Source of the DNA: Rhodovarius lipocyclicus
GTDB taxonomy: Bacteria; Pseudomonadota; Alphaproteobacteria; Acetobacterales; Acetobacteraceae
Direction: 5' to 3'
DNA: 64,000 nt
Assembly: GCF_009900765.1 (NCBI RefSeq)
Contig: NZ_JAAABL010000005.1
Span: 62,001 to 126,000, forward strand
Notes under the pieces: model-generated
Database searches by the model: none
Told to the model about the DNA's origin: nothing
What the model saw: only the letters and a program-made list of their open reading frames with translations
In this document: in pieces, positions 10,160-43,805 of the stretch
How positions within the stretch are numbered: the first letter of the stretch is position 1
Layout: each line of letters starts with the position of its first letter
Made by a program: the position numbers and the translations under genes

Positions 10160-11098
10160 ATGATCCGTCACCGCCTGACAGCCATCGCGCTGCCGCTGCT
10201 GCTGGCCACCGGCTGCGCCTCCACCGCGCCGGTCCGCCGGGCCGACCTGCCCGCCGGGCAGCGCTTCGCCGGCCAGATGGAAACCGCGGACACCAACGCC
10301 ACCGCCGCCATCCGCCGCGTGGCGGATTTCGAGCAGGTGGTGGTGCGTGAGGAAGCCGCGGTGGCCTATGCCACCGACGGCCGCCGCCCCGCCGACCGCC
10401 CAGGCCCCAGCGCCGCCGACGCCGCGGGCATGGTCTTCGCCCCCGCCTTCGCCGCGATCGGCGATTACGGCCATGTGATGGGCCATGTCGCCTCCGGCCT
10501 GCCGATCACGGCCAAGCCCGGCCCGAGCGGCGCCGAACTGGCCCGCCTGACCGAGGCCGGCCTGGCCGCCGTGCAGACCGCCGCCGGCGTGACCGTGACG
10601 CCAGAGGTGCGCAGCGCGGGCCTGGCCGGCATCATCGCCCTGGCCGACCTGGCCGAGACGATCAGCAAGCGCGGCGGCCCCGAGCCCGGCCTGCGGACCC
10701 TGGCCGCCGAGGCCGAGCCGCATCTGGCCGCCGTGGTGGAATTGCTGAAGCAGGTGCTGGGCGCCGAAACCGGCCAGGCCGTGCGCGGCGCCGTGCGCAG
10801 CAGCCGCAACGCGCTCGAAGCCTCCCACAACCGCCTGCTGACCGCCGCCCGCGCCACCAACCGGGATCCGGTGGCCCGCTACAGCCTGTATCGCAGCATC
10901 GTGGCACTGCGGGACAATGACCCGGTGCAAGGAACGATCGGCGCCGTGGTGACGGTGCTGAACCGCCTGCACACGGCCCATGTGGCCCTGGCGGCGGACC
11001 CGACCAGCACGGATACCGCAGGCAAGGTCGTGGCGTTCGAGAACGCGGTGAACGCGCTGGGCGAGATCGCCGGGGTGCAGCCTACGGAAGAGCAGTAA
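10160..11098 (+). CDS. Putative lipoprotein of unknown function
   Basis: A 312 aa protein whose N-terminus MIRHRLTAIALPLLLATGC ends in a lipobox with Cys19 as the likely lipidation site, so it should be membrane anchored. The mature part is Ala-rich and almost entirely alpha-helical in character (LAEAGLAAVQTAAG, ELLKQVLGAETGQAVRGAV), with no enzymatic motif I recognise. It lies 88 bases after the repeat-protein gene on the same strand and may share its transcript. Its 3' end meets the structured repeat element at 11101. Confidence 0.8.
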   Translation: MIRHRLTAIALPLLLATGCASTAPVRRADLPAGQRFAGQMETADTNATAAIRRVADFEQVVVREEAAVAYATDGRRPADRPGPSAADAAGMVFAPAFAAIGDYGHVMGHVASGLPITAKPGPSGAELARLTEAGLAAVQTAAGVTVTPEVRSAGLAGIIALADLAETISKRGGPEPGLRTLAAEAEPHLAAVVELLKQVLGAETGQAVRGAVRSSRNALEASHNRLLTAARATNRDPVARYSLYRSIVALRDNDPVQGTIGAVVTVLNRLHTAHVALAADPTSTDTAGKVVAFENAVNALGEIAGVQPTEEQ

Positions 11099-11100
11099 GC

Positions 11101-11330
11101 GAGGGCGCTGCCCTCGCGCTCCCGCTCGGGGGGAAATGACTTTCCCCCCGAGAACCCCCCATTACTTTTTGGGAGTTTGGGGGCGGACCTGGGTCCGGGA
11201 GGGTTTTTCTGATAAATTATATAATAATATCAATAATATAAAGCTATTCGCAGGGGACTGGGGAGATCTTATCTCCCCAGCGGAGGGGTCTGGGGAGGCG
11301 GCGCCTCCCCAGTCCACCTTCCCAGGAAGG
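11101..11330. repeat. Structured AT-core intergenic element, copy 1
   Basis: The whole convergent gap is filled by a modular element. It holds a GAGGGC/GCCCTC hairpin (11101-11115), a perfect 12-bp stem CTCGGGGGGAAA with loop TGAC (11125-11152), and an almost pure A/T core (11211-11248, containing ATAATAATATCAATAATATA). Two related hairpins built on CTGGGGAG/CTCCCCAG follow (11258-11280 and 11290-11312), then a CCTTCC/GGAAGG hairpin (11317-11330). A second copy lies at 23080-23295 with the same module order. No coding capacity is visible. The strongly AT core is unlike the surrounding DNA. Confidence 0.85.
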
Positions 11331-11331
11331 C

Positions 11332-12321
11332 TCACCCCCTCCCTTCCTCCACCGCATGGCAGGCCACCAGGCTTTCCCCCGCCGCCAGCGCCACGGGCCG
11401 CTCCGCCTTGCAGCGCGCGTTCGCCAGCGGGCAGCGCGGGTGGAAGGCGCAGCCGGAGGGCGGGTTGATCGGTGACGGCACTTCGCCCCCCACCGGCGTG
11501 CGGGCGCGCCCGGTCATCTCGAGGTCCGGGATCGCCTCCATCAGCGCGCGCGTGTAGGGGTGGCGCGGCGCGGTGAACAGGGTTTCCGCCGGTGCCTGCT
11601 CCACGATGCGGCCCAGGTACATCACCCCCACCCGGTCGCTGACCTGCCGCACGACGGACAGGTTGTGGGAGATGAACAGGAAGGTCAGGCCCAGCCGGCT
11701 CTGCAATTCCTTCATCAGGTTCAGGATCTGCGCCTGCACCGAGACATCGAGCGCCGAGGTCGGTTCGTCGCAGACCAGGAATTCCGGGTTGGAGGACAAG
11801 GCGCGCGCGATGGAGATGCGCTGCCGCTGCCCGCCCGAGAATTCATGCGGGAATTTCTCGCCATCGGCCGGGGCCAGGCCCACCTGGGTCAGCAACTCGC
11901 CGACCCGGGCCAGGATCGCCTCCTTGCCCTCCACCAGTTTGAAGGCGCGGATGGGCTCGGCGATGATGTCCCGCACGCGCCAGCGCGGATTCAGGCTGGC
12001 GTAGGGGTCCTGGAAGATCATCTGCATGCGCTGGCGCTGGGCGGGGTCCGCGCGCGCGACCGACAGGGGCTGGCCGTCGAACACCACCGCGCCGTCGCTG
12101 GGCGGGTACAGCCCCACCACCAGCCGCGCCACGGTGGATTTGCCGCAGCCCGATTCCCCCACCAGCGACAGGGTCTGGCCCTTGGGGATGGCGAAGGACA
12201 CCCCATCCACCGCGCGCAGGGTGCGGCGCGGTTCGCGCGCCAGCAGCCGCTGCAGCGCGGGGCGGGAGACATCGAAGTAACGGGCGAGGTCCTGCGCCTC
12301 CAGCATCGGGTTCTCAACCAT
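11332..12321 (-). CDS. Oligopeptide-type ABC transporter ATPase, OppF/DppF subfamily (second transporter)
   Basis: A cytosolic ATPase of 329 aa with Walker [10 protein letters not shown], signature FSGGQ, Walker B FLVCDE and the C-terminal GCAFHPRCPLA motif of the OppF group. It is the last gene of the second ABC operon and overlaps the OppD-type gene by eight bases. A second in-frame ATG five codons in is an equally possible start, since neither has a strong ribosome site. It is closer in type to the ATPase at 2699 than to its own partner. Confidence 0.92.
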   Translation of the reverse strand: MVENPMLEAQDLARYFDVSRPALQRLLAREPRRTLRAVDGVSFAIPKGQTLSLVGESGCGKSTVARLVVGLYPPSDGAVVFDGQPLSVARADPAQRQRMQMIFQDPYASLNPRWRVRDIIAEPIRAFKLVEGKEAILARVGELLTQVGLAPADGEKFPHEFSGGQRQRISIARALSSNPEFLVCDEPTSALDVSVQAQILNLMKELQSRLGLTFLFISHNLSVVRQVSDRVGVMYLGRIVEQAPAETLFTAPRHPYTRALMEAIPDLEMTGRARTPVGGEVPSPINPPSGCAFHPRCPLANARCKAERPVALAAGESLVACHAVEEGRG

Positions 12322-22801: not shown

Positions 22802-23062
22802 ATGCTGCGCCGGCTGCATGCCTTCTATCTGCGCCTGCCCCTGCCGGTGCAGCTGTTCCTGCCCGGCGTGCTGGGCGGCTTCGTCATCGCCACCCTGCTG
22901 GTGGGCGCGCTGCTGTGGAGCAATTTCGGCGGCATCGGGCAACTGATGCTGCGATCGCGCGAGCACCCCATCCCGGTGCTGCTGCTGTGGTTCTTCCTGG
23001 GGCTCAGTGCCTCCAGCGTGCAGATCGGCATCGCGGTGATGGGGATGAAGAAAGACGATTGA
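22802..23062 (+). CDS. Small membrane protein, unknown
   Basis: An 86 aa protein (MLRRLHAFYLRLPLPVQLFLP...) with two strong transmembrane segments, about residues 22-42 and 58-80, and a short cytosolic tail MGMKKDD. Five bases after the MFS stop, so probably on the same message. No family recognised. The stop lies just before copy 2 of the structured AT-core element. Confidence 0.7.
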   Translation: MLRRLHAFYLRLPLPVQLFLPGVLGGFVIATLLVGALLWSNFGGIGQLMLRSREHPIPVLLLWFFLGLSASSVQIGIAVMGMKKDD

Positions 23063-23079
23063 GGCGCTGCCCTGGAGAT

Positions 23080-23295
23080 TAAGGTTGAGGGGGAAATGAC
23101 TTTCCCCCTCGTCAAACGCGATGCGTTTGCCCCCCCATTACTTTCCATCAGTTTTGGGACAGCCCTGAGCCTGCGAAGGCTTCTCTGGTAAATTTATATA
23201 ATAATATCAATAATATAAAACTATTCGCAGGGGCCTGGGGAGATCTTATCTCCCCAGCGGATGGGGTCTGGGGAAGGCGGCGCCTTCCCCAGCCT
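23080..23295. repeat. Structured AT-core intergenic element, copy 2
   Basis: Same module order as 11101-11330: hairpin GAGGGGGAAA-TGAC-TTTCCCCCTC (23087-23110), an extra CAAACGC/GCGTTTG hairpin (23113-23129), an A/T core (23187-23227) sharing ATAATAATATCAATAATATA with copy 1, CTGGGGAGAT-CTT-ATCTCCCCAG (23235-23257), and CTGGGGAAGGC-GGC-GCCTTCCCCAG (23268-23292). Both stems that differ between copies change on both sides, keeping the pairing. It fills the gap between two convergent genes, as copy 1 does. Confidence 0.85.
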
Positions 23296-23296
23296 T

Positions 23297-25024
23297 CTAC
23301 TTCTCCGCCAGGATCGCCGCCGCCATCTTCTCCGCCACCATCAGCGTCGGGAAGTTCGTATTCGCGCTCGGCACGAACGGAAACACCGAGGCATCGCACA
23401 CCCTCAGCCCGGGCGTGCCGTGCACGCGGCCCGCGCTGTCGGTCACGGCCATCGGGTCGTCTTCGCGCCCCATGCGGCAGGTGCAGCTGACATGCCATTG
23501 CCCGGTGGCGTTGGCGCGCACGAAGGCTTCCAGCTTGTCCTCGTCGGCCAGCAGTGCCGCGATGGGCGGGGCCTCGGTGATGAAGGCATGGACGGCGGCG
23601 CGGTGCACGGCGCCCGGCAATTCCAGGATGGGCGCCAGCAGGCGCGTCATCACATCGTTCTTCAGGCCGCGCACCGCCACCTTGCGCACCGCCTCGTTGT
23701 ACACGGCCGGAAAGGCATAGCGGATGGCCCCGCGCAGGGCGGGCATGGCGTGCCACAGCGCGATGCGGCGCAGCGCATCCATCAGGCGCTCCGCGTCCCG
23801 CGCATCCGACAGCAGGTTGAGGTTCACCTCCGGGTGCAGGGCGGGGTCTGCGCCCTGGATGCGCACGCTGCCCTGGCTATAGCTGCGGTTGACCCAGGCC
23901 TGGATCGCCCCCAGCCGCGCGCCCACCGCGTGCCAGGAGGGGCGCGCGATCGCCAGCGCGAACATGTCGCCCCCCGCCACGCCCGGCAGGCCGGAGGACC
24001 AGCGCACCCCGGCATGGATGTTGCGCTGGGTCAGCGCGCCGGGCATGCGGCTGGCGGCTGGCAGCAGGGCGGCCATGCCCATGGTCGGGTGTTCCTGCAG
24101 ATTGCGCCCCACGCCCGGGCGGTGGTTGCGCAGGGCGATGCCATGGGGGGAGAAATCCTCCGGCGCGCCGATACCCTGGCTTTGCAGGAAGGCCGGTGAA
24201 CGGATGGCGCCCATGGAGAGGATGATGTCCCGCCGCACCTCCAGCCGGCGGGTGTCGCCGTCGGGCGCGCGCAGGCGCACGGCGATGGCGCGGCCCTGCG
24301 CGTCGAAATCCAGCCCCAGCACCAGGTGGCGGGCCAGGATGGTCAGGTTGGACCGCGCGCGCACCGCCGCGGTCAGATAGCCCATGGCGGCCGAAACCCG
24401 ATGGTCGGCCGCGGCATTGGCGGTGGTCAGGGCGAACCAGCCATCGCGGAAATCCCCGTTCTGGTCCGCCAGATAGGGCAGGCCCGAGGCCTGCCAGGTC
24501 GCGGCCGCCGCCTGGCTGTAGCCGGGCCAGGATTCGCGCGGGATGCGCCGCACCGGGATGGGCCCGCCGCCACCATGCAGCGGGGTCTCGCCGAAATCCA
24601 GGTCGGTCTCCAGCTTGCGGAAGAAGGGCAGAACCTCGGCCCAGCTCCAGCCCTCGGCCCCCTCACGCGACCAATCGTCGTAGTCGCTGGGCACACCCCG
24701 GTTGCCGAGCTGCCCGTTGATGGAACTGCCGCCACCCATCACCCGCGCCTGCTCATAGCTGCGGGGCTTGGGCGGGGGCTCGGGCCGGTTATGCGGGCGG
24801 TGCGGCAGCGTGACCTTCAGCCCGCGCCACAGGAAGTCCGGGTTGTAGACCGCATGGCCGTGATAGCTGAGGCGGATATCCGCCGGCACGGCCTCGGGCG
24901 GGGTGTCGGGCCCGGCCTCCACCAGGCAGACGCGGCGGGAGGGATCCTCCGACAGCCGGGCGGCCAGGACGGAGCCCGCGGAGCCACCCCCGCAGATCAC
25001 ATGGTCGAACAGGTTCTCGGACAA
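23297..25024 (-). CDS. GMC-family FAD-dependent oxidoreductase (choline/alcohol dehydrogenase-like)
   Basis: A flavoprotein of 575 aa. FAD-binding GGGSAGSVLAARLSED lies near the N-terminus, followed by GMC signature 1 (GGGSSINGQLGNRG) and signature 2 (GAIRSPAFLQSQGIG). The C-terminal HVSCTCRMG and SANTNFPTLMVAEKMA segments hold the catalytic His/Asn pair region. I prefer a TTG start at 25024: GAGGAAG lies six bases upstream and the FAD motif then falls at the usual distance. An ATG at 25108 would add 28 basic residues and reach into the divergent promoter. Substrate unknown (alcohol, choline or sugar alcohol). Divergent from a TonB-dependent receptor. Confidence 0.9.
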   Translation of the reverse strand: MSENLFDHVICGGGSAGSVLAARLSEDPSRRVCLVEAGPDTPPEAVPADIRLSYHGHAVYNPDFLWRGLKVTLPHRPHNRPEPPPKPRSYEQARVMGGGSSINGQLGNRGVPSDYDDWSREGAEGWSWAEVLPFFRKLETDLDFGETPLHGGGGPIPVRRIPRESWPGYSQAAAATWQASGLPYLADQNGDFRDGWFALTTANAAADHRVSAAMGYLTAAVRARSNLTILARHLVLGLDFDAQGRAIAVRLRAPDGDTRRLEVRRDIILSMGAIRSPAFLQSQGIGAPEDFSPHGIALRNHRPGVGRNLQEHPTMGMAALLPAASRMPGALTQRNIHAGVRWSSGLPGVAGGDMFALAIARPSWHAVGARLGAIQAWVNRSYSQGSVRIQGADPALHPEVNLNLLSDARDAERLMDALRRIALWHAMPALRGAIRYAFPAVYNEAVRKVAVRGLKNDVMTRLLAPILELPGAVHRAAVHAFITEAPPIAALLADEDKLEAFVRANATGQWHVSCTCRMGREDDPMAVTDSAGRVHGTPGLRVCDASVFPFVPSANTNFPTLMVAEKMAAAILAEK

Positions 25025-38614: not shown

Positions 38615-38624
38615 GGCGCCGGGG

Positions 38625-38880
38625 GGCAGGCACTCAGGGGCTCCGCCCCCGACACCCCCGCCAGGACCGTGCTCGGTCCTGGACCTAGATCAGTTTGGCG
38701 CTGATCCTGGGAAGGTATCTGCCATTGATTTTTATAATGAAAATGGCGCCTCTGATGGGTTCCAAGGGCCTTTCGGCCTTTGGCGGGGAGCCGAGGGGCA
38801 GAGCCCCTCGGTCTTTTGCACCCTTGGGGGCAGAGCCCCTCGGTGCGGGTTCGGGGGCGAAGCCCCTGAAAAAGACCGCC
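38625..38880. repeat. Cluster of palindromes in a convergent gap (REP-like)
   Basis: Six or more hairpins follow one another: CCAGGACC/GGTCCTGG (38661-38682), GATCAG/CTGATC (38688-38706), GCCATT/AATGGC around an AT-rich loop (38721-38747), CCAAGGGCC/GGCCTTTGG (38762-38783), CCGAGGGGC-AGA-GCCCCTCGG (38791-38811) and GGGGC-AGA-GCCCC / GGGGC-GAA-GCCCC further on. GGGGCAGAGCCCCTCGGT occurs twice (38795 and 38827). TCTTTT after 38811 makes that hairpin a possible terminator for msrP. No coding evidence. Confidence 0.7.
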
Positions 38881-38884
38881 CGCC

Positions 38885-43433: not shown

Positions 43434-43715
43434 GGCAGTGGCTCCGGTAATCTTCGGGCGCAAACTAGAGCATCGCCCGGGCGGGCGAAATCACCCGAAG
43501 GGCAAAGAAGGCGGCGGAAATCCGTGCCTGGGGGCGATTCCCCCGCCGGGGCGCCCGGAAACAGGAACAGTGTTGCGATTTGGAGGGGGTGGATGACCCC
43601 GAAATCGCTGCGTCGCAATAGATTGCTGCGCCGCAACAGCCCTTCACGAAACTTTTTAACAGGATCTGGCCAATGAAGATGCGGAAATTGCTTCCACATT
43701 GATCAGCCCTGGGCT
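43434..43715. other. Gene-free upstream region of proS with a pair of direct repeats
   Basis: No gene is seen. GCTGCGTCGCAA (43607-43618) and GCTGCGCCGCAA (43625-43636) are direct repeats 18 bases apart, each partly palindromic (TGCGRCGCA). They lie about 170 bases ahead of the proS start. They could be operator half-sites or simply remains of a duplication. Confidence 0.4.
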
Positions 43716-43805
43716 AAAAAAAAGGCCGCCCCAGAGAGGGCGGCCAAGTTTAGGGAGGAAACGCCAGTCACACGGCAGAAAGAGGACCAACCTCTCTCTG
43801 ACGAA
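43716..43805 (-). ncRNA. Candidate alpha-r8 (MmgR/suhB-type) small RNA
   Basis: Read on the minus strand, a hairpin (43778-43799) is followed by an unpaired stretch with UUUCCUCCCU (complement of 43752-43761), then a perfect 8-bp terminator stem GGCCGCCC/GGGCGGCC (43724-43745) and eight U (43716-43723). The UUUCCUCCCU word next to the terminator is, as I recall, the hallmark of the alphaproteobacterial alpha-r8 family, whose S. meliloti member MmgR is about 77 nt. The word is complementary to strong ribosome sites, so the RNA probably blocks target mRNAs. The 5' end is approximate. Confidence 0.6.

Follow-up and report, generated by a model that had tools for sequence, protein, structure and literature searches.

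Two gaps between convergent genes in the stretch analysed here (64,000 nucleotides of Rhodovarius lipocyclicus, hereafter the window) are each occupied by a copy of the same hairpin-rich element, and the two copies differ in the letters of their stems while keeping the stems paired. The locus thus raises the question of whether the fold itself is maintained and what a folded element might do between the 3' ends of two genes.

Anatomy of the element and its copies in the source genome

The preliminary description compared copy 1 with copy 2 (Table 1) and held that their stems carry compensatory changes. Pairs 9 and 10 from the loop of hairpin 1 do differ on both arms and are still paired, hairpin 3 of copy 2 gains one A–T pair, and the loops TGAC, GGC and CTT are identical in both copies. 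The AT core, also claimed to be constant, is an exact match over 20 bases (11221–11240 vs 23198–23217; 0 expected by chance). What has to be qualified is the word compensatory: the changes are two-sided and keep the pairing, but they mostly distinguish whole-stem alleles and are not single compensatory mutations. Since the letters flanking hairpin 1 are linked to its stem allele, the difference between copies 1 and 2 is mainly that of a block.

Table 1. Coordinates of the three elements in the window and of their parts.
Feature	Position	Strand	Description
Copy 1, entire convergent gap	11099–11331	.	+ gene ends at 11098, − gene (dipeptide ABC transporter ATPase) ends at 11332
Copy 1, left outer hairpin	11099–11117	+	GCGAGGGC-GCT-GCCCTCGC; immediately 3' of the stop codon
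Copy 1, hairpin 1 (left inner)	11125–11152	+	12 bp; CTCGGGGGGAAA-TGAC-TTTCCCCCCGAG
Copy 1, hairpin 2 (right inner)	11258–11280	+	
Copy 1, hairpin 3 (right outer)	11290–11312	+	10 bp; GGGGAGGC/GCCTCCCC
Copy 2, entire convergent gap	23063–23296	.	+ gene ends at 23062, − gene (GMC oxidoreductase) ends at 23297
Copy 2, hairpin 1 (left inner)	23087–23110	+	10 bp, loop TGAC; GAGGGGGAAA-TGAC-TTTCCCCCTC; outer two pairs gone
Copy 2, extra hairpin	23113–23129	+	CAAACGC-GAT-GCGTTTG (CAAACGCGATGCGTTTG); beside hairpin 1
Copy 2, AT-rich centre	23197–23217	.	TATAATAATATCAATAATATA; without the right arm of the central stem found in other copies
Copy 2, hairpin 2 (right inner)	23235–23257	+	10 bp, loop CTT
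Copy 2, linker	23258–23267	+	CGGATGGGGT
Copy 2, hairpin 3 (right outer)	23268–23292	+	11 bp, loop GGC; GGGGAAGGC/GCCTTCCCC
Third element	38633–38811	.	second subfamily, sequence-diverged; inside convergent gap 38615–38884
Third element, left half	38633–38690	−	
Third element, right half	38754–38811	+	

The two copies also differ in their left parts. The left outer hairpin of copy 1 is gone from copy 2, and pairs 11 and 12 from the loop of hairpin 1 in copy 2 are T-G and T-T and so are lost, at a point where extra sequence with its own hairpin follows; this extra hairpin is shared with locus L002 alone among the copies listed. Both copies lack the right-hand arm that the central stem has in other copies. 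Folded as RNA, both outdo their dinucleotide shuffles (z values of −6.08 and −4.33), none of 200 shuffles doing as well.

A blastn search of the source genome with copy 2 gives 52 matches, spread over about 40 places. From left to right, a copy usually consists of an outer hairpin, an inner hairpin, CCCCCATTACTTT, a left arm AGTTTGGGGAC, the AT core, a right arm GTCCCCAAACT, an inner hairpin, the linker CGGATGGGGT and an outer hairpin. After removal of short reverse-strand palindrome matches and duplicates, hairpin 1 falls into discrete stem alleles: TTGAGGGGG in 16 of 31 copies, CTCGGGGGG in 13 and CCGGGGG in 2. One-sided changes that break the stems, which the preliminary description had named as the observation to look for against a conserved fold, are rare; among copies selected by patterns that include stem letters, pairing is complete in 25/31 for hairpin 1 (over 12 bp), 29/32 for hairpin 2 (over 10 bp) and 24/32 for hairpin 3 (over 10 bp). 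Hairpin 1 of L034 is a clear case of compensation at one pair, where a two-sided change turns G–C into A–T. Halves are also mixed among copies, as in the mosaic copy L040, whose left half is joined to another centre. Flanks tied to the stem allele and halves mixed between copies together indicate that block exchange contributes to the variation.

A second large subfamily, to which the third window element belongs, has many copies in the same genome, and ATCAAT or its complement recurs in the AT-rich centres of both subfamilies. In the second subfamily and in the relative G005, the loops of the outer hairpins, when read outward from the centre, are purine-rich triplets (AGA, AGG, GGA, AGC, GGC) on both sides while the stems vary, and these triplets may be a strand signature. 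In 11 contig-end copies (L021–L024, L027, L028, L030, L033, L034, L036, L037), the AT core is joined to either of two ends resembling those of insertion sequences (IS), GGGTCTCGACTAG or GGGCTTGTTGAGAT. Six right and five left junctions correspond to about 5–6 insertions, all within the AT-rich centre; a second-subfamily element (C2:58950–59124) carries a further IS-like end, CTAGTCGAGACCC, within its AT-rich centre. These junctions raise the possibility that IS target the AT core in this otherwise GC-rich genome. Insertion of IS into REPs has been described (PMC1525189) and resembles the junctions inside several copies here; in the available text of that paper the insertions are targeted to the REP sequence proper, whereas here the junctions lie in the AT-rich centre. 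A plasmid-borne repeat was rejected, as two window copies have no match in the plasmid collection.

Pairing, covariation and strand asymmetry

Each element is mirror-symmetric about a centre that is flanked on either side first by an inner hairpin, then by a linker and finally by an outer hairpin. One such flank is called a half-element here; in this outward direction its linker is G-rich. R1, a covariance model of a single half-element, was built from 31 half-elements carrying the G-rich linker; double hairpins inside genes or lacking that linker were excluded, and the two halves of the third window element were included. Matches to R1 occur as pairs, a − half followed by a + half.

The covariance test proposed in the preliminary description was run on 128 distinct half-elements. 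Standard pairs make up 98.6% of 2203 pair cells, and two-sided change is seen in 16 of 18 pairs. The covariation score is 0.588, as against 0.210 in shuffles and at most 0.196 when partners are slid by 1 to 3 columns, in an alignment fitted to the R1 structure, which favours pairing. Pairing is thus strongly kept and covariation lies far above both controls; the count of further pair types stands out less, being reached by 20 of 500 shuffles. The idea that the fold matters is upheld, though by the whole repeat family and not by copies 1 and 2 themselves.

The non-Watson-Crick cells of the stems, read from the centre outward, are asymmetric. Unique stems, with cells taken from the structure-aware search, contain G-T 21 times and A-C 6 times (binomial p 0.006). 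Copies of the source genome contain G-T 12 times and A-C 3 times (binomial p 0.035), a count that omits two insertion-broken outer pairs of copy 2 and L002 and becomes 12 vs 5 when they are included. This excess of G-T would fit an RNA transcribed toward the far gene; a strand bias of C-to-T mutation would equally give it.

Distribution, placement and turnover

In same-genus relatives, most matches span the outer hairpin alone, and the surroundings keep the layout with other letters: two outer hairpins enclose two inner ones, the left linker is C-rich and the right one G-rich, and the centre consists either of AT-rich sequence or of a long GC-rich stem. R1 finds at least 153 half-elements in the source genome, at least 148 in G005 and at least 123 in G007, and none among the candidates scored in G002. 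With the same model, the element is matched in at least 49 of 80 genomes of the family Acetobacteraceae and, in a sample of the class, in at least 3 of 114 further genomes (two of the three with a single match; at least 4 of 115 including the source genome). Stems from 48 of 79 genera within the family have a common architecture and different letters. An exact half-element is found in public contigs of, among others, Rhodovarius crocodyli, Roseococcus, Paracraurococcus and Neoroseomonas. The element is restricted to this lineage, and from the literature searched both its architecture and the family look undescribed; no paper describing the composite element is among the open-licence matches listed.

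Placement was scored against genes called by a custom codon-usage script instead of a standard tool. All 17 complete elements found with R1 lie between convergent (13) or codirectional (4) genes and none between divergent genes, and 11 lone halves are distributed 7, 3 and 1 over the same three gap types; these counts use the 45 best of 56 R1 matches (E up to about 1e-4). None of the 28 elements or halves is inside a called gene, and an element between convergent genes is usually separated from each of the two stop codons by some tens of bases. Hairpins in general show the same preference in 864 kb from five genomes. Among gaps of at least 100 bp, double hairpins occupy 12/33 convergent, 7/135 codirectional and 2/80 divergent gaps (convergent vs rest, p 5.5e-7), and among gaps of 20–99 bp, at least one hairpin is present in 15/23 convergent, 16/125 codirectional and 0/24 divergent ones.

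The occupants of given gene ends change between relatives. For the ABC transporter gene beside copy 1, the orthologues in G005 and G008 carry an element of different letters, and G001, G002 and G004 have a convergent gap free of it, so the element is not required there; the neighbour in G007 is not convergent, and G003 and G006 gave no full match. The GMC oxidoreductase gene beside copy 2 has a differently lettered element in G005, next to a different partner gene. At the left gene of the third window element, none of eight relatives has the element, and G005 has a U-tract hairpin repeat instead. The 239-bp element at C2:127043 of the source genome corresponds in G005 to a single hairpin in a 37-bp gap between the same two adjacent genes, and the left gene of the element at C2:47233 is followed in G005 by a gap of only 10 bases. 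The same gene ends can thus hold the element, a single hairpin, another repeat or nothing, which indicates that the element turns over; in G005, most examined gene ends carry some hairpin.

Two further observations concern these sites. Three loci of G005 (L164, L172, L241) carry a gene-end repeat with long T and A runs (e.g. AAAAGTCTTTTTGCTTCTTTTTCTTCAGAAAAAGAAGA) where the source genome has elements. At 5 of 6 element junctions (L077, L073 and the window elements), the flanking genes are not neighbours in G005; synteny often breaks at elements, which may reflect operon ends only.

A possible role at transcript ends

In the broad sense, the element belongs with REP/BIME sequences, being a dispersed extragenic palindrome arranged in inverted pairs at gene 3' ends, and a kind of element already known at such sites. 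The REP/BIME sequences of E. coli and Pseudomonas are likewise dispersed extragenic palindromes, form inverted pairs around a spacer, are enriched between convergent genes and lie near both stop codons (PMC3733652). According to the available text of that paper, conv-REPs mostly lie within 20 bp of both 3' ends, form heterodimers with different stems and have structured spacers, and CGTC repeats are missing from Acetobacteraceae. In the element described here, by contrast, each half comprises two hairpins with a G-rich linker between them. Among 121 unique half-elements, a GTAG tag occurs in none, either in the first 12 nt or in the linker, and a CGTC tag occurs in the first 12 nt of none and in the linker of one. 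The RAYT gene (Y1 tyrosine transposase, PF01797), which accompanies REPs of the GTAG type, is found in none of nine genomes of the genus, and controls match in 5 of 14. A RAYT-driven REP of the GTAG type was thus rejected, as the half-elements lack the tag and the genus lacks the gene. RepRanger includes palindromes without a U-tail among its putative REPs and reports 1,369 of them for Lichenicola cladoniae (Acetobacteraceae), some of which may be halves of the present family (PMC12306157). The available text gives counts and motifs and does not treat a composite element or convergent genes, the word 'convergent' occurring 0 times.

Kept pairing with changing letters, in gaps between convergent genes, suggests a job at transcript ends. 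We give slightly better than even credence to a dispersed, mirror-symmetric palindromic element of the REP/BIME kind that works at transcript 3' ends. The hairpins would act in RNA and would bound the 3' ends of both convergent mRNAs, protecting them against exonucleases or operating together with Rho, and they would stop read-through of one gene from turning into antisense RNA of the other. Partnership with Rho or exonucleases is probable from what is generally known of transcript ends; a literature search on both returned no match. Since the outer hairpin is not followed by a U-tract, the elements are not canonical intrinsic terminators. They do place a GC-rich hairpin at the gene end, as such terminators do; however, TTT occurs within 12 nt past the outer hairpin in just 10 of 138 halves, which makes that identity unlikely, and T makes up 7–22% of the first 8 positions. 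A lax scan for U-tracts (at least 5 T in 8) passes copy 2 alone and finds 8 sites, against 5.4 expected in shuffles. Bidirectional intrinsic terminators also have hairpins that evolve by compensatory pair switches, passing between Watson-Crick pairs in two steps with G-U as the commonest intermediate (PMC5381666, available text); in contrast to them, the present element has no U-tract after its outer hairpin, comprises several hairpins each time and forms a repeated family. A known Rfam RNA was rejected, since no element reaches a gathering score: the whole window gives three Rfam matches, none at the elements, and a search of 22900–23450 down to E 1 gives two, both far below gathering. Elsewhere in the window, positions 43709–43783 (−) match the suhB/mmgR sRNA (RF00519) with 54.5 bits.

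A selfish element, too, would be safest in a gap between convergent genes, and the repeat could be a non-autonomous mobile palindrome that persists where insertion harms neither promoter nor coding sequence. Its hairpins would then serve mobilisation, and pairing would be kept by the needs of the mobilising enzyme. The copy number in one genome, with the 52 matches to one subfamily joined by a second large one, the presence and absence at orthologous gaps and the species-specific subfamilies all favour such an origin. Yet the one transposase looked for, Y1/RAYT, is missing from the genus although the control genomes match, single-hairpin convergent gaps are common, and other hairpin repeats substitute at the same gene ends, which a function fits better; we regard mere selfishness as unlikely. 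The element might also work at the level of DNA, its hairpins extruded as cruciforms, as a site for gyrase or a nucleoid protein (e.g. IHF) that relieves positive supercoiling between convergent genes, as has been proposed for E. coli BIMEs. The convergent placement, the AT-rich centre with its recurrent ATCAAT between inverted hairpin pairs and a reported link of REPs between convergent genes to supercoiling (PMC1525189, available text) point in this direction. An excess of G-T over A-C is unexpected for pairing in DNA, however, and the full IHF consensus was not found in the centres by eye. In the second subfamily, the left and right outer stems have the same allele in only 2 of 26 copies (by eye), so the element is not paired as one large cruciform, which was rejected on this ground. 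Overall, a DNA-level role appears quite improbable. A further possibility is that the two-sided changes are unselected, template switching at quasipalindromes or block replacement by recombination preserving the pairing with no function involved. Stem alleles that behave as blocks with linked flanks, and mosaics such as L040 (the left half of one copy with the centre of another), are what such processes would leave. A common architecture with no common letters over 48 of 79 genera and a placement that tracks gene 3' ends go beyond what repair alone would produce, and this account is the least credible of those considered.

Returning to a role at transcript ends, halves and stems are combined differently from copy to copy, as though exchanged as modules, and the simplest guess is that copies spread by recombination or gene conversion between copies. 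A more specific proposal, which we offer tentatively and with more doubt than belief, is that the tail-less hairpin pairs constitute a transcript-end system specific to Acetobacteraceae. Each half would act on the RNA of the opposite gene and shield its own gene from antisense read-through; units would be copied and shuffled between gene ends as modules, with letters rewritten species by species and the fold and place kept.

In the draft genome of R. lipocyclicus, many contig breaks fall at the element. Several genomes hold over 100 half-units, roughly half of the family members sampled have the repeat and Rfam does not match it, which makes it a natural system in which to ask how convergent transcripts end in GC-rich bacteria when there is no U-tract. 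Its two-sided changes, both block-wise and point-wise, and its strand-specific G-U bias make a function in RNA or in DNA testable.
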